Positions 1 through 5,695 of a stretch of 33,005 nucleotides of DNA are shown one piece after another. Below the pieces are notes generated by a model. That model did not search any database, was not told the origin of the DNA, and was given only the letters and a program-made list of their open reading frames with translations. A program made the position numbers and the translations under genes. Where the stretch lies: positions 1 through 33,005 of the IMG/VR virus record IMGVR_UViG_3300042934_001323; one strand, 5' to 3'. The DNA is from a virus. The stretch's first letter is position 1. Each line of letters begins with the position of its first letter.

Positions 1-1584
1 CTATTTAGGGATTCTTGGATACACAATTAATTCGAAATCATCAAAATTTTTATCTTTACCTACCTTTTTGGTTTTTGTGTATACTGCTTTTGAAACTACT
101 TCATCCAGGAGAGCATTTTTTACTTCCGGATCTTCCACTGAATCATACACAGCTAGCACATGCTCAACCTTGGGAATAAATTCAGTTATGCTTCTTTGAA
201 TCTTGGAATTATCATCAAGTTCCTTTTTAATAATATCAAAGTTAGTCTTTGTTTCAGTAAGCTTTTCATTTATTATTTTTGATCGTTCCATAAAAGTTTC
301 AGTAGTGTAAATACCTTGCTCAAGAAAGTCATGTATGCTATTCATCTGCTTGTTAAGATTCTTCAATTCATCTTCCAGCCTTTTGATATTTTGTTTCTTA
401 ACTTCTATTTCTGTATTGCTTATTACCTCTTTGTTTTCTATGTCCAGCTGCAGCTTATAATCAGTAAGCCACTGTTGCAGTGATACCAGGATCCTGTTTT
501 CCACATATGATAAGTATGAGCTTATGTTCTTACATCCTGACGTAGGACATACTAAGAAATCAGGTGTTCTATTGGGGTATGGTCTGCGCACCATTTTAGA
601 TCCACACTGGCCGCAGATCACTATACCGGTGAGCGGATTTTTAATAGGTTTCATATTAGGCGCAGGTTTAGGCTTGTTGTTTTTAAGGTACTCTTGAGTT
701 TTGTAGAACAGATCCTCATCAATAATAGCTTCATGCAGTCCGTCATACAGCAGCCACTCATCCTCATCAGCGCGTGGGCGCTCAATGGTTACTATGCCTT
801 CCTGCATTTTTTTAACTGCTGGTCTAAAGTTCCATCTTACTTTTCCTATGTAAACAGGATTTCGCATCAATTCCAGCACTCTTGAAGGAGTCCATTTTTT
901 ACTTTGTGCAGGTGGAATTTTCATGTCATTAAGCTTATTGGCTATCAACGTTGAGCCCAATCTTTTTATTGAACCGTCATCCTGCTCTTCACCAACTGTG
1001 TAAAGTTCAAATATCATTTTGATTACAGCAGCTTCATCCGGTTCGATTTCAAGTGTATATCCTTTCTGGCTTTGCAACTTTACAATTTTATAGCCATACG
1101 GCTTTTTGTTTCCAACCCACTTGCCTTCTTTTACTGATGAAACCCTGCCGGCCTGGAGCCTCCTGTTTATAGTTTTATATTCACGTCTTGACATAAAAAG
1201 TCCGAATTCAAAGTATTCTTCATCGAATTCATTGCCTGGATCGTATATCTTCATCGGCGTTATGATCTTGGTGCCAGAATACTTAAATGTCTGTGCAACA
1301 AGGCCCTGGTCAATGGTATCACCCCTGGCAAGCCTCTCAACTTCCATAACAAGAACACCGGCCCACATTCCCTTTTCAACATCGCTCAAGAGCTGCTGCA
1401 TTACAGGTCGAGCGGTAATTGTTTCACCGGATACCACTTCTTTATATGTCTTGGTTATGTATAGCTTATGTTTCTTGGCATAGTCCATCAAAGCACGTTC
1501 ATGGCGCGCAAGGGTTTCACCTTCACCATGTGCTTCTGCTTCAATGTCTGCTCTTGACTTTCTCAAATACATGCAATATTCCAT
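1..1584 (-). CDS. int: Large serine recombinase (phage integrase)
   Basis: 527-aa site-specific recombinase of the large serine integrase type, expected to integrate and excise the prophage. The N-terminus has the resolvase motif YLRKSRAD with the likely nucleophile Ser10, followed by a typical resolvase catalytic domain to about residue 150. A recombinase domain follows, then a zinc-ribbon-like region with cysteines around residues 322-352 (ICGQCG and VCPTSGC), then a long charged coiled coil at about 375-450, which is the usual order. The ATG at 1584 follows a good ribosome site (GAGTGGTGAT). It lies 24 bp after the ImmA-like gene, so the two form one operon that would be driven by the SOS-type promoter at 2129-2157. 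The gene is complete; its stop codon is the first three bases of the window, so the adjoining attachment site on that side is not visible. Confidence 0.95.
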   Translation of the reverse strand: MEYCMYLRKSRADIEAEAHGEGETLARHERALMDYAKKHKLYITKTYKEVVSGETITARPVMQQLLSDVEKGMWAGVLVMEVERLARGDTIDQGLVAQTFKYSGTKIITPMKIYDPGNEFDEEYFEFGLFMSRREYKTINRRLQAGRVSSVKEGKWVGNKKPYGYKIVKLQSQKGYTLEIEPDEAAVIKMIFELYTVGEEQDDGSIKRLGSTLIANKLNDMKIPPAQSKKWTPSRVLELMRNPVYIGKVRWNFRPAVKKMQEGIVTIERPRADEDEWLLYDGLHEAIIDEDLFYKTQEYLKNNKPKPAPNMKPIKNPLTGIVICGQCGSKMVRRPYPNRTPDFLVCPTSGCKNISSYLSYVENRILVSLQQWLTDYKLQLDIENKEVISNTEIEVKKQNIKRLEDELKNLNKQMNSIHDFLEQGIYTTETFMERSKIINEKLTETKTNFDIIKKELDDNSKIQRSITEFIPKVEHVLAVYDSVEDPEVKNALLDEVVSKAVYTKTKKVGKDKNFDDFELIVYPRIPK

Positions 1585-1608: not shown

Positions 1609-2097
1609 TTAATCTTCTTCGATTTGTTCTAACATTTCATCAAAGTATCCATTATGAATAAGTGCTTCAGTCAATTCTTTTCTGAACCTCACAAAATTGA
1701 CTGTGACTCCAAATTCTTCTGCCAGATCATAATCACTTCTGCCAAGCTTCAATGATTCTTCAAACACATAAACAGGCATTAAAAAGTATGCTGCAAAAGC
1801 ATTGGCCTGCATTTCTTGTTTACTTATCACAGCTTTTTCCTTAAGCATGGAATTGCCATAATGAAATAGAGCATGTCCAAGTTCATGAACAACATCTTCC
1901 CGGAAGGCTTTATTTTGAGTTTTAGGCATTAAAATAGTGTCATCAATGTAAATAGTTGTTGAAAGGTTTTTAAGAGTAATTAATTTGAGATGCTTGTCTG
2001 AAATGACTTGTTCGATTGTTTCTTTATCTATAGGATAGTCAAAGATTTGATATTCAGTAAGTAAGTAGATTGCTTTGTTTAGCATATTGTAGTACAT
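1609..2097 (-). CDS. ImmA/IrrE-family metallopeptidase
   Basis: 162-aa zinc metallopeptidase of the ImmA/IrrE (COG2856) family. The zinc motif HELGH is preceded by the usual FREDVVHELGHALFHYG context, and a downstream glutamate in KQEMQANAFAAYFLMP supplies the expected third ligand region. Family members such as ImmA of ICEBs1 relieve repression by cleaving a cI-like repressor. By inference this one inactivates the repressor at 4932-5297 on damage. The reading frame is open further upstream to 2142, but GGAGGAG sits 8 nt before the ATG at 2097, and the upstream ATG at 2142 would lie before the predicted transcription start, so 2097 is chosen. Unlike many ImmA genes it is paired with the integrase and not with the repressor. 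Confidence 0.88.
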   Translation of the reverse strand: MYYNMLNKAIYLLTEYQIFDYPIDKETIEQVISDKHLKLITLKNLSTTIYIDDTILMPKTQNKAFREDVVHELGHALFHYGNSMLKEKAVISKQEMQANAFAAYFLMPVYVFEESLKLGRSDYDLAEEFGVTVNFVRFRKELTEALIHNGYFDEMLEQIEED

Positions 2098-2128: not shown

Positions 2129-2157
2129 ATTATACAGAACAATTGTTCGAGTGTAAA
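2129..2157 (-). promoter_or_regulatory. Promoter of the ImmA-integrase operon
   Basis: On the minus strand, TTTACA (2157-2152), a 17-bp spacer and TATAAT (2134-2129) make a near-consensus sigma-A promoter. The expected start point is about 2122, and the ribosome site and ATG of the ImmA-like gene follow. A LexA-like dyad fills most of the spacer. Confidence 0.75.
2136..2149. promoter_or_regulatory. LexA-like (SOS) operator
   Basis: The minus strand reads CGAACAATTGTTCT, matching the CGAAC-N4-GTTCG pattern of the Firmicute LexA/DinR box except for the last base. The dyad GAACAATTGTTC is perfect. It sits between the -35 and -10 of the ImmA-integrase promoter, where a bound repressor would block transcription. 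Inference: DNA damage derepresses the metallopeptidase and the integrase together. Confidence 0.6.
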
Positions 2158-2166
2158 GAAATAAAA

Positions 2167-2195
2167 TTGAAACTATTAGTAATTAATGGTATAAT
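2167..2195 (+). promoter_or_regulatory. Promoter of the membrane protein gene at 2213
   Basis: TTGAAA (2167-2172), a 17-bp spacer and TATAAT (2190-2195) form a strong sigma-A-type promoter. Transcription would begin near 2202 and leave only a short leader with the ribosome site GGGGTGAT before the ATG at 2213. The gene can therefore be expressed from the lysogen independently of phage early or late promoters. Confidence 0.7.
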
Positions 2196-2212: not shown

Positions 2213-2914
2213 ATGGATATTGGAACAATATTATCTACAGTATTATTCTTAGGTCCGGGGTTTTTATTAAGGCTAATATCTACTTGGATAGAAGAGCCAG
2301 CGTGTGATGAAGAGAGCACAGAAGTTATTTTTACAAAATCATTTATATTTAGTTTTATCATTTTGATAGCTAACATGATGATCTTAAAACTTGTTTTTCA
2401 CAGAGAAATTAACACATTTACTGATTTAATAAATAATATTTACAATATTATATTTTTTGTGAAATACTGTATTTTGACTGTATTCATATGTATATTTGTC
2501 GCTATATTAAAACCTATAGCAGTTAAATTATTAGTTGAATTTTATAATAATATATTTAATAAAAAGAAAGACCGAAAATATACTACATTTAACGACTTAT
2601 GGAATATCATTTTTTATAATCCTGATTTTGACGTTTCAAAACATGTATTCACAATTCAAAAAAACGAAACAATAATTACTCATGGCTTCATTAAAAATGT
2701 AACTCCTAAAGGAAGGGGAAAAAAGAAAATAATATTAACTTTAACTGATATAGTTAGTGATTATTTCAATGACAAGGAATTTGCTGAAAAGAATTTGAGT
2801 GAAATTGTAGTGGAATATTATGATTTCGATTCAGATATACTTATAAAGGCATACCATGCAGAAGCAATTATTGAAGATATTGACAATAGAATTGCTTCTG
2901 CTAAAAGTATGTAA
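2213..2914 (+). CDS. Membrane protein resembling the DUF6338 type
   Basis: 233-aa protein with hydrophobic helices at about residues 6-22, 44-65 and 82-105, then a basic linker (NKKKDRK) and a soluble C-terminal half. The layout of N-terminal helices followed by an F/W-rich motif (NDLWNIIFYNP) and a small beta-rich domain resembles proteins annotated DUF6338. That assignment is from memory of the pattern and is uncertain. It has its own strong promoter and runs against the TIR operon, ending 4 bp before that operon ends. It is probably lysogenic-conversion cargo rather than a phage structural gene; its function is unknown. Confidence 0.75.
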   Translation: MDIGTILSTVLFLGPGFLLRLISTWIEEPACDEESTEVIFTKSFIFSFIILIANMMILKLVFHREINTFTDLINNIYNIIFFVKYCILTVFICIFVAILKPIAVKLLVEFYNNIFNKKKDRKYTTFNDLWNIIFYNPDFDVSKHVFTIQKNETIITHGFIKNVTPKGRGKKKIILTLTDIVSDYFNDKEFAEKNLSEIVVEYYDFDSDILIKAYHAEAIIEDIDNRIASAKSM

Positions 2915-2918
2915 TTAT

Positions 2919-3062
2919 TTATTTTGGTGGTCGTTTGGTCGGTGTAACAAAACTTGGTACTTTGCTTCCGTCATCTCTTTGCCAAGGCTTAGGCCCATAG
3001 CCTGAGCCTTGTGGCACTTTAGGGGATGTAGGTTGGATTTTTGGTGTTTTATTTTCGCTCAT
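2919..3062 (-). CDS. 47-aa proline- and lysine-rich protein, third gene of the TIR operon
   Basis: A short reading frame starting MSENKTPKIQPTSPKVPQGS and ending KRPPK, rich in Pro, Lys, Ser and Gly and with no hydrophobic core. Its ATG (3062) follows the TAA of the TIR gene with no gap, and a clear GAGGAGA ribosome site lies in the end of the TIR gene, so translation is probably coupled. It stops 4 bp from the convergent membrane protein gene. I do not recognise a family. The strong ribosome site, tight coupling and lack of an alternative feature make it likely real. It is probably a disordered accessory peptide of the operon. Confidence 0.65.
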   Translation of the reverse strand: MSENKTPKIQPTSPKVPQGSGYGPKPWQRDDGSKVPSFVTPTKRPPK

Positions 3063-3803
3063 TTAATTCTCCTCTTCAGTTTTACTTACAATATTAAATA
3101 AATTAAAAAATTCTTTTGAATCTATAATATCATTGCTAAGTTTATTAGATTTTAATGGTTTAGTGAAATCTTTAATTTTAGTCTCATCATTGTATATCTC
3201 TCTATTCTTTTGACTATATTCTAAATTATTTACTCTCTTATTTAGCATACGTGTTGTAGACAAAATTTCATTTAGAATTTCTTCTTCACTTCTTTTTGGT
3301 ATTATAGATTTTTCATCTCCTTCGGTTTCTTTAATTATTTTAGTTAAGTTGATTTCAAATGTAGGCCAATTCATTTCAAAAACTTTATTAAGTATTTCTT
3401 GATTCAATTTTTTATCAGAGCGCTCATTTAATGTGAAAATAAGTTTTCTAATATTACTTTTATCAGGTAAGGTATGATTAAATTGAGATAAGGGACCTGA
3501 AATATCAGTAGGCTGCAAGTCTATCAATAAACAACAAACTCTGCTTGATTCCAATCCCTTTGACAAGGCACCTGCTTCAAATAAAATCCATGGCTCATTT
3601 AAATTAGATTTTGTTAGACATATGATTCCTGCAGCAGAAATATTTAAATTTCCATTAATATCATTAGTCCATAAGGAACCTCTATCAATGTCTACATCTG
3701 ACATCCATGGCTCAGATGATTGTAAAACACATTGTAACCAATCGTGTAAAAATAAGGCGACCTGCTTACTTCTTTCCTTTGACCAACTTAAAAATATTTT
3801 CAC
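3063..3803 (-). CDS. TIR-domain protein (putative NAD-consuming defence effector)
   Basis: 246-aa protein with an N-terminal bacterial TIR domain (about residues 1-150). It starts KIFLSWSKERSK and continues with PWMSDVDIDRGSLW, the core GIICLTKSNLNEPWILFEAG, and ISGPLSQF. Glu76 in ILFEAGAL is at the position of the catalytic glutamate of TIR NADases. The C-terminal 90 residues are charged and helical, without a recognised domain, and may sense or oligomerise. GTG is the start (3803), supported by GAGAGGA 8 nt upstream. It is the middle gene of a leftward operon, 47 bp after the 310-aa gene and directly followed by the 47-aa gene. Bacterial TIR proteins commonly cause abortive infection by depleting NAD or making signalling nucleotides; that role is inferred here. 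Confidence 0.88.
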   Translation of the reverse strand: MKIFLSWSKERSKQVALFLHDWLQCVLQSSEPWMSDVDIDRGSLWTNDINGNLNISAAGIICLTKSNLNEPWILFEAGALSKGLESSRVCCLLIDLQPTDISGPLSQFNHTLPDKSNIRKLIFTLNERSDKKLNQEILNKVFEMNWPTFEINLTKIIKETEGDEKSIIPKRSEEEILNEILSTTRMLNKRVNNLEYSQKNREIYNDETKIKDFTKPLKSNKLSNDIIDSKEFFNLFNIVSKTEEEN

Positions 3804-3850
3804 TTTGGAATTCCTCTCTTTTTATATTTATATAAAGTTAAATTGAATTT

Positions 3851-4783
3851 TTACATATCATCTATAGACAATTGATCCATTGGATTAAATTGGATAACTT
3901 CTAGTACTTTTAAAATAGAGTATTTCCTTTTTATTTCTGTTTTGTTTTCATCATGGAAGCTTATTACTCTCATGTTCACTTTTAATGAATCTTTAGGCCT
4001 TACGTCTATCTTGCGATTTTGAAAATCATATAACCATTGAATGTCTTCAAACTTTGCGTCTATTGATGTTCCTTCATATTTAAACTCCCACATTGCATTT
4101 GATACATAATCAGGTTGTTTTATTTTTATAGTCATTACACATGTTGATTCTCCTAGATAACTAATTTCGGGTTCTAATAGCTTTTCAGGAATTGAAAAAT
4201 TTCTGTTAACTATATATCTGTTTCGATTATCTGATGAAGGAGTTATCACTTCATAATAAACATCAACCTCTTCTGGCATTTGATTTACAGCAACACTAAT
4301 GTTGTTCATGCTAGTTAATAGTTTTTTTGTATCGATAGTGTTATAGTTTTTTAATGGTAATATATTTGTTTTTTCAATTTCTTCATATAGCTCTATTTGT
4401 AGTTTTTCAATACTATCAAGTTCTGTTATTTCTTCTTCTTCCATTTTTTCTAATATTTTTTTCTTTCCAAGAACTAAGAAGTGTCCGATTATTTTTTTAA
4501 CATCAAGTTCTTCCAATGCACTGTCAGGAATATTTTCTAGTAGATGTTTTAGAAATACTTTTATTGAACCTTTCTCAACGCTATCAAGTACAAATGAGTG
4601 ATCAACAGTTGTGCTAAATGAGGAAATCAACGTCTCATCTGCAAATTTTAATGCATCTATTATCGATGACACAGATTTAAATAAAGCTGACGGATTATTA
4701 ACATAGTTCTTGTAATCAATTATAATGCAAAACCCTGTATCATCATTGTAATTATAAGATATATCTTTCGTAAATGTATCCAT
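3851..4783 (-). CDS. Unknown 310-aa protein, first gene of the TIR operon
   Basis: Acidic soluble protein of unknown family. The N-terminal half (about 1-130) is mixed alpha/beta and contains SVEKGSIKVFLKHLLE and LDVKKIIGHFLVLGKKK. This pattern recalls uncharacterised proteins with an ED-V-GS-x-K-x-WL motif, but I can name no domain. The C-terminal half is beta-rich and ends in KVLEVIQFNPMDQLSIDDM. The frame is open to an ATG at 4870, but AAGGGGAG lies 10 nt before the ATG at 4783 and nothing suitable precedes 4870. It sits downstream of the repressor and 47 bp upstream of the TIR gene. By position it is a candidate sensor or regulator of the TIR effector. No transmembrane segment or nucleotide-binding motif is visible. 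Confidence 0.75.
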   Translation of the reverse strand: MDTFTKDISYNYNDDTGFCIIIDYKNYVNNPSALFKSVSSIIDALKFADETLISSFSTTVDHSFVLDSVEKGSIKVFLKHLLENIPDSALEELDVKKIIGHFLVLGKKKILEKMEEEEITELDSIEKLQIELYEEIEKTNILPLKNYNTIDTKKLLTSMNNISVAVNQMPEEVDVYYEVITPSSDNRNRYIVNRNFSIPEKLLEPEISYLGESTCVMTIKIKQPDYVSNAMWEFKYEGTSIDAKFEDIQWLYDFQNRKIDVRPKDSLKVNMRVISFHDENKTEIKRKYSILKVLEVIQFNPMDQLSIDDM

Positions 4784-4824
4784 TAAATATGTTCTCCCCT
4801 TATTCTGCAAATTTTGCATTAAAT

Positions 4825-4860
4825 ATATAAAAAATCCCATATCAAAAAAAGACATGGGAT
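4825..4860 (-). terminator. Rho-independent terminator, leftward
   Basis: ATCCCAT (4834-4840) and ATGGGAT (4854-4860) form a 7-bp stem with a 13-nt A/T-rich loop, and on the minus strand it is followed by TTTTTATATATTT. It lies between the repressor and the TIR operon, so it probably limits read-through from repressor transcription. No convincing promoter was found between it and the 310-aa gene. Confidence 0.5.
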
Positions 4861-4910
4861 TATGATCCATAAGTAATTATATTAAGTTGTCAGCGTTTCC
4901 CCCATAGATG

Positions 4911-4934
4911 TAAATATAATCCCCATTATATTTA
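4911..4934. other. Perfect hairpin at the end of the repressor gene
   Basis: TAAATATAAT-CCCC-ATTATATTTA is a perfect 10-bp inverted repeat with a 4-nt loop, overlapping the repressor stop codon. The stem is all A-T. It could protect the 3' end of the repressor message or be part of a two-step terminator with 4825-4860; no U-tract follows directly. Confidence 0.45.
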
Positions 4935-5297
4935 TTTGTCTTGTTGCTGTTTTTTAAATTTTATGAAGTTTATTATTTCCTGCTTGTCCGTTTCGGAAAG
5001 GTTTTTAAAATCTTTGAATGCCACCATGGTGTCCGGATCATTGAGGAGCTGCTGGAGCTCTTCATCGAGCGTAAAAAGCTCTGTACTTCTTTTATCAGTA
5101 TTTCCTAAAAGATAATCTGTTGATACTTTATACAAAGCAGCAAGTTTGTTTAGCATTATACTATCTGGAATTCTCTTCCCTTGTTCGTAATAACCATAAC
5201 CACTTTCCGTTATTCCTATTTTAATTGCAACATCTTTTTGATACATTTTGTTTTCAATACGTAGTTGTTTCAATCGTTTGCTTAGAATACCATCCAT
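4932..5297 (-). CDS. CI-like phage repressor (XRE-family HTH)
   Basis: 121-aa protein with an N-terminal XRE helix-turn-helix (about residues 6-64). It contains LKQLRIENKMYQKDVAIKIG and ITESGYGYYEQGKRIPD, then LNKLAALYKVSTDYLLGNTD. A short helical C-terminus (NLSETDKQEIINFIKFKK) may dimerise. It has no LexA-type peptidase domain, so induction would need another factor such as the ImmA-like protease. AGGAGTG lies 5 nt before the ATG at 5297. It is divergent from cro and would bind the three CAAC-N5-GTTG sites in the shared control region. It is the presumed repressor of the lytic promoter at 5401-5429. Confidence 0.88.
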   Translation of the reverse strand: MDGILSKRLKQLRIENKMYQKDVAIKIGITESGYGYYEQGKRIPDSIMLNKLAALYKVSTDYLLGNTDKRSTELFTLDEELQQLLNDPDTMVAFKDFKNLSETDKQEIINFIKFKKQQQDK

Positions 5298-5322: not shown

Positions 5323-5351
5323 ATTATACAACTTTGAGTTGAAAATGTAAA
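5323..5351 (-). promoter_or_regulatory. Repressor promoter (PRM-like)
   Basis: On the minus strand, TTTACA (5351-5346), a 17-bp spacer and TATAAT (5328-5323). An operator (5329-5341) abuts the -10 box inside the spacer, so binding there should shut off the repressor gene. Confidence 0.72.
5329..5341. promoter_or_regulatory. Operator 1, CAAC-N5-GTTG
   Basis: CAACTTTGAGTTG is a dyad with 4-bp arms and a 5-bp centre. It lies in the spacer of the repressor promoter and is the same pattern as operators 2 and 3. Confidence 0.65.
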
Positions 5352-5400
5352 CATTGCAAGGAATTAAACAACAAAAACGAGATAAATGTAAAAATAATCC

Positions 5401-5429
5401 TTGACAGACAACTTTGCGTTGTGTTATAT
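5401..5429 (+). promoter_or_regulatory. Early lytic promoter (PR-like)
   Basis: TTGACA (5401-5406), a 17-bp spacer and TTATAT (5424-5429), driving cro and the early genes. Operator 2 (5409-5421) fills its spacer. Confidence 0.75.
5409..5421. promoter_or_regulatory. Operator 2, CAAC-N5-GTTG
   Basis: CAACTTTGCGTTG differs from operator 1 by one base in the centre. It sits between the -35 and -10 of the early promoter, where repressor binding would exclude RNA polymerase. Confidence 0.68.
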
Positions 5430-5442
5430 TGAATTCAATAAA

Positions 5443-5455
5443 CAACAAATTGTTG
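5443..5455. promoter_or_regulatory. Operator 3, CAAC-N5-GTTG
   Basis: CAACAAATTGTTG has the same arms with a different centre. It lies downstream of the early promoter start point and just before the cro ribosome site, where it could act as a roadblock or a Cro site. Confidence 0.6.
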
Positions 5456-5470
5456 GGAAAAAGGTGAATA

Positions 5471-5695
5471 ATGAATAATCTAAAACAGCTTAGGGGCAAT
5501 AAATCTCAAAAAGAAATTGCAGATAAAGTAGGCATAACTACTAGTCATTATGGCTTTATTGAAAATGGTGAAAGACAGCCTTCATTAAAAGTAGCTAAAA
5601 AGATTGCAGATGTATTTGACAAAAAAATAGAAGAAATTTTTTTTGACAATTCAAGCAACATTTCGTTGGGCGTAAAGCTAAAAGAAACAGGCTAA
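5471..5695 (+). CDS. Cro-like regulator (XRE-family HTH)
   Basis: 74-aa protein that is almost entirely one XRE helix-turn-helix domain (NNLKQLRGNKSQKEIADKVG, then ITTSHYGFIENGERQPS and KVAKKIADVFDKKIEEIFF). AAGGTGA precedes the ATG closely. First gene of the rightward early operon and divergent from the repressor, which is the classical cro position. It should compete for the CAAC-N5-GTTG operators. Short, highly similar HTH proteins in this place can also be activators, so the name describes position. Confidence 0.85.
   Translation: MNNLKQLRGNKSQKEIADKVGITTSHYGFIENGERQPSLKVAKKIADVFDKKIEEIFFDNSSNISLGVKLKETG

Follow-up and report, generated by a model that had tools for sequence, protein, structure and literature searches.

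Among the known systems closest to the locus analysed here are ImmR/ImmA/Int of the Bacillus subtilis element ICEBs1 and similar prophage immR-immA pairs, in which an M78-type protease shares its operon with an integrase and acts beside an XRE repressor with a helix-linker-helix tail; the ICEBs1 operon promoter is under the control of ImmR (PMC8960796). How proteases of the ImmA type sense DNA damage is unsettled, the roles of RecA and ssDNA differing between reports (PMC12637031). In Listeria, MpaR is a DUF955/M78 protease antirepressor that cuts the repressors of two elements, and mitomycin-induced excision requires LexA cleavage (PMC6872733). Enterobacterial phages offer known examples of antirepressors under LexA control, namely Tum of phage 186, GftA/GfoA of the Gifsy prophages and AntC of N15 (PMC3121763). 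Host LexA also serves as a phage regulator in GIL01 and CTXphi (PMC4551915, PMC12637031), and the recombinase genes of superintegrons are tied to the SOS response (PMC3323433).

The window, a stretch of viral DNA of 33,005 nucleotides, shares with ICEBs1 an M78-type protease and an integrase in one operon and an XRE repressor (Table 1). However, the repressor gene lies 2.8 kb from immA, with cargo between them, and not directly upstream as in ICEBs1, and the immA-int promoter carries a LexA-type box and no phage operator.

Table 1 Features of the window around the immA-int promoter and the repressor gene
Feature	Position	Strand	Remarks
Large serine integrase	1-1584	-	527 aa; PF00239, PF07508, PF13408; phrog_95 integrase, 4e-106
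immA, ImmA/IrrE-type metalloprotease, presumed antirepressor	1609-2097	-	162 aa, HELGH motif
-10 element TATAAT	2129-2134	-	17-nt spacer (2151-2135) from -35
LexA-type (SOS) box CGAACAATTGTTCT	2136-2149	-	in spacer of the immA-int promoter, filling most of it
-35 element TTTACA	2152-2157	-	17 nt from -10
Cargo between repressor and immA-int	2213-4870	.	includes TIR-domain defence-like gene
TIR-domain defence-like gene	3063-3803		PADLOC TIR-TM, E 3.5e-65
XRE/ImmR-like repressor, likely ImmA substrate	4932-5297	-	121 aa; variable HTH head, conserved tail
Likely phage operators CAAC-N5-GTTG	5329-5341, 5409-5421, 5443-5455, 5656-5668	.	around repressor/cro genes
Cro-like HTH protein	5471-5695	+	divergent from repressor gene

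The immA product belongs to the M78 family, as it matches PF06114 better than the cut-off (E 2.8e-14) and phrog_87 (metallo-protease), and the residues H71, E72 and H75 of its HExxH zinc motif are unchanged throughout A3. Its AlphaFold model was too poor for use (pLDDT 56); neither solved structures sequence-related to A3 nor named phages or plasmids bearing this ImmA were found. The gene starts with an ATG at 2097, preceded by a good ribosome-binding site, and the int ATG follows 24 nt 3' of the immA stop without an intergenic terminator. The integrase contains the Resolvase, Recombinase and zinc-ribbon domains of the large serine integrases. The only good candidate for a separate int promoter, TTAACA/GATAAT at 1612-1585, ends just 5' of the int ATG and was rejected because its transcript start would fall within int.

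The preliminary description had placed a LexA-type box inside the immA-int promoter, and this proved to be real, with CGAACAATTGTTCT running from 2149 to 2136 on the minus strand between the two hexamers. Over the 12 bp of its core, GAACAATTGTTC (2137-2148), the box is perfectly palindromic, and the promoter around it matches 11 of the 12 consensus bases, which is joint best among seven promoters of the region. A GAAC-N4-GTTC/T operator overlapping the promoter is what characterizes a Firmicute-type LexA regulon (motif as given in PMC4234289). The last base, formerly described as the one departure from the Firmicute SOS box, is a T that is normal here, host lexA boxes ending in T or G too. GAACNNNNGTTY occurs a single time in the 33-kb window, where 1.56 occurrences are expected by chance, and the significance of this lone motif comes only from its position and conservation, not from the motif itself. 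At a distance of some 10 bp from the -35 of immA, a strong promoter points the other way (TTGAAA-17-TATAAT, including a TG; 2167-2195, plus strand) and precedes the gene for an uncharacterised 233-aa protein, probably membrane-bound.

ImmA relatives were gathered through protein similarity alone, not by the box. GAAC-N4-GTTY is present in the immA promoter at 13 of 16 clade loci, and at 15 of 16 when one mismatch is allowed, the two additional loci (L174 and L180) coming from one genome. The sole clade locus without a box, L187, has its immA directly 3' of an XRE repressor gene. All close relatives have a box in the spacer between the two hexamers: as CGAACAATTGTTCT in a relative with 97% identity, as CGAACATATGTTTG at 74%, as the perfect box CGAACAAATGTTTG in a Sedimentibacter acidaminivorans prophage at 73%, as CGAACAATCGTTCT at 72%, and as AGAACATATGTTCT, CGAACGTTTGTTCT and CGAACATTTGTTCT in relatives with 46-48% overall identity. 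The sequence 5' of the -35 in the 97% relative is unrelated to that of the window; therefore, the promoter moves together with immA-int. Two boxes flank the apparent -10 in a subgroup of four loci (L188, L189, L192 and L193) and one box lies 3' of the -10 in L194, thus the motif is retained while its copy number and placement vary. It is likewise kept despite swaps of the integrase (serine or tyrosine), of the upstream cargo and of the DNA-binding head of the repressor. In a maximum-likelihood tree the box-bearing ImmA genes form a clade with support of 97/80, of which the immR-immA pair of L187 is the only box-less member.

No lexA gene was found in the window, a viral contig of 33,005 bases; the same motif is found at the lexA promoters of seven genomes (G001, G219, G281, G266, G027, G149 and G351). 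One of them, Sedimentibacter (G001), shares the motif at its recA and dinB promoters too, with the box TGAACAAATGTTCT at recA and CGAACATATGTTTT at the dinB-like gene. Its lexA promoter contains three boxes or near-boxes, including AGAACAATAGTTCG, which is identical to the window site, in plus-strand reading, at 13 of 14 positions. Five of the six other genomes hold box-bearing immA genes.

Taken as a reading of these sequences, the site is very probably a host LexA operator, placed within the core of the promoter that serves an immA-int operon split from the repressor gene. The direct control by host LexA over immA and the integrase that was predicted earlier gains support from a box that is kept across the prophage clade, invariably lies within the core promoter or right at it, matches the host lexA and recA boxes, is unlike the phage operators and is absent where immA directly follows the repressor gene. 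In a quiescent lysogen, LexA would block RNA polymerase between -35 and -10 and so keep ImmA and integrase low. Upon DNA damage, RecA filaments would lead to self-cleavage of LexA and the immA-int operon would be turned on. ImmA would then cut the ImmR-like repressor within its conserved C-terminal tail, the CAAC-N5-GTTG operators would be freed and the early genes would start, and the co-made integrase would excise the prophage with a directionality factor, presumably supplied from the early operon.

This scheme modifies two earlier proposals. Excision and repressor inactivation had been proposed to start together, which is implied only in part, since serine integrases normally also require a directionality factor for excision. 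The arrangement had also been called an alternative to RecA-cleavable repressors; the repressor itself would indeed avoid RecA, but cleavage of LexA still needs it. LexA control of int further raises the question of integrase supply when an undamaged cell is infected. LexA repression should hinder integration in a healthy cell, where integrase would be scarce because its single promoter is under LexA; leakage, SOS triggered by the infection, or delayed LexA occupancy of the incoming DNA may resolve this puzzle.

ImmA may need activation as a protein as well, because reports on other ImmA systems differ. LexA could then be a secondary brake that limits background integrase and ImmA, with ImmA activation, for example by RecA or ssDNA, as the decisive switch. 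We regard this as a tentative possibility, which refines the LexA-operator explanation and does not oppose it, so that the confidence given to the one overlaps with that given to the other. It is favoured by known ImmA-type systems, in which repressor and protease respond to damage as a pair and the protease gene is not known to be under LexA control: the damage response of ICEBs1 fits such a pair, whose protease is also controlled post-synthesis, pneumococcal ImmAR prophages respond to damage in a host without LexA, and the activity of Listeria MpaR rises under SOS. By analogy with the post-synthesis control of ImmA-type proteases in ICEBs1 and Listeria, other controls may act besides LexA or outweigh it. 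However, the clade box is absent when immA follows the repressor gene (L187) and present when immA stands alone, and this stand-alone arrangement suggests that control is exerted by transcription.

The presumed substrate combines a variable head with a constant tail. Repressors of five close relatives have heads that are 28-49% identical and C-terminal tails that are 75-93% identical; in L187, where the repressor gene and a clade immA form a direct pair, the repressor tail is related to these (BLASTP across the protein, 3e-16), and a second ImmA group presents the same contrast, although weaker. The model of the window repressor exhibits an HTH head and, at modest confidence (pLDDT block means of about 48-74), a tail with helices at 77-86 and 102-120, a helix-linker-helix as in ImmR, the linker containing VAF94-K95. 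ICEBs1 ImmR is cut by ImmA at F95-M96, in the corresponding linker (PMC8960796), and by this analogy a candidate ImmA cut site lies near VAF94|K95. The constant tail and the variable head point to a distant ImmA-repressor pair, and this lends support, short of proof, to an action of ImmA on the repressor encoded 2.8 kb away.

The same repressor, or the Cro-like protein, might itself bind the palindrome in the immA-int promoter, considering that short inverted repeats are often bound by phage repressors and that ICEBs1 ImmR controls the immR-immA-int promoter. The likely operators of the window's own repressor are, however, the CAAC-N5-GTTG sites, of which four are observed for 0.27 expected, all within 5329-5668, and a window-wide motif search gave none near immA. 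Moreover, GAAC-N4-GTTY is constant among relatives with such divergent repressor heads, is mostly present as one copy, and occurs nowhere but at immA. An operator for the phage's own regulators is thus improbable, and was rejected.

That an AT-rich spacer produced the palindrome by chance is barely credible: about 1.6 copies of GAACNNNNGTTY are indeed expected per window, but relatives as distant as ~48% protein identity, whose upstream DNA is unrelated, have the motif again at this promoter, and after dinucleotide shuffling a box turns up in a mean of 0.09 promoters out of 16 (maximum 2). When every 4-bp inverted repeat in the promoters of 15 immA genes was ranked blindly, GAAC-N4-GTTC came out top with 11 of 15, the best non-overlapping rival dyads reaching 5 of 15. 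The control set comprised the loci of 79 other ImmA/IrrE (M78) genes, drawn from a maximum of 291 genomes in the same bacterial class and found by a Pfam-based census from which L263 and L271 were left out, having no HExxH frame. A box was present at one of these 79 genes (L264) and at none of the 55 with an HTH (repressor-like) gene directly upstream. The difference from the clade (13/16 versus 1/79) has a Fisher p of 2e-12, which is too optimistic as the loci share ancestry. On the strength of shuffles, dyad scan and control genes, a chance origin was rejected.

A link between the box and the serine integrase was also considered and rejected, since most of 80 integrase relatives are without such a box; it tracks immA instead, tyrosine integrases included. 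At one locus with no immA detected (L139), an SOS-like box, CGAACATTCGTTCT, occurs at 3863-3876, ~137 bp 5' of a serine integrase gene.

Boxes are also found outside the main clade of the tree. A separate ImmA group (L068, L083 and L172) has them at the -35 or next to it in all three loci, and L040 and L264 fall outside the clade as well. The SOS-box immA arrangement probably arose more than once, because these other box-bearing genes sit elsewhere in the tree. L040 (near 10579, on the reverse complement) and L264 are further M78-family genes with SOS-type promoters; no adjacent integrase was seen at L040. A composite-promoter scan of 2.9 million viral contigs returned 21 matches, four of them from the immA family of the window, and several others resemble, by the look of their sequence and not by family assignment, Y-family polymerases and other SOS-type genes.

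With the site read as a LexA operator, the locus can be set against the other known systems. It shares with Tum, the Gifsy antirepressors and AntC an antirepressor gene outside the immunity region and a LexA box, LexA control being predicted here, but its antirepressor shares an operon with the integrase and its box is of the Firmicute type. Tum and the antirepressors of Gifsy act by repressor binding, whereas the window ImmA belongs by sequence to the M78 protease family (activity predicted) and not to such non-proteolytic binders. Listeria MpaR is an M78 protease antirepressor, as predicted for the window ImmA, but mpaR adjoins the gene for its repressor, through which it is autoregulated, whereas the window immA is separate; the part of PMC6872733 considered describes no LexA box in the mpaR promoter, and the window immA promoter has one. 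In GIL01 and CTXphi, LexA and a phage protein jointly act on promoters of the phage itself, whereas here it would act on an antirepressor-integrase operon. The superintegron integrase, tied to SOS as predicted for the window recombinase gene, is a cassette recombinase with neither antirepressor nor prophage. A LexA-controlled M78 antirepressor and an integrase in one operon were not found in searches of open-access papers; a LexA-controlled protease with an integrase appears to be a new variant among LexA-controlled antirepressors, its priority being uncertain.

The clade suggests a transcriptional answer to damage sensing, in which immA, apart from immR, and the integrase are placed under host LexA. 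This would link an antirepressor that acts by proteolysis to the SOS response in a simple way and would explain how the repressor head can change without loss of inducibility. More speculatively, and on balance unlikely, immA-int could be a portable, SOS-licensed module, with cross-induction of co-resident prophages through a shared ImmA-cut tail. If so, integrase supply, hence integration and excision, would depend on the SOS state of the host, and the ImmA of one damaged lysogen could induce several co-resident heteroimmune prophages together, because differently targeted repressors share the ImmA-cut tail. One genome (G149) holds four immA-int loci of the clade (L188, L192, L193 and L194), all with SOS boxes, and this poly-lysogen would be suited to a cross-induction test. 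Free spacing between repressor and immA would, under the same assumption, open a slot where defence genes collect.

The repressor-to-immA interval holds different cargo in each relative (L035/L165, L003, L168, L169, L170, L083 and L068), often defence-like, such as TIR, DNA methylase and restriction-like genes, and is a candidate defence-gene slot.

Additionally, three small genes (L151, L281 and L025) encode only a LexA DNA-binding domain of 78-88 aa and have an SOS box in their own promoter, comparable to the LexA homologue of GIL01. The box of the second (L281; G027 C11:196200), in another genome, is identical to CGAACAATTGTTCT of the window at 14 of 14 positions. The first (L151, near 2232-2550; Sedimentibacter C8:152731-152978) has phage lysis genes and a Dam-type methylase gene as neighbours and apparently lies at the opposite end of the prophage that bears immA-int.
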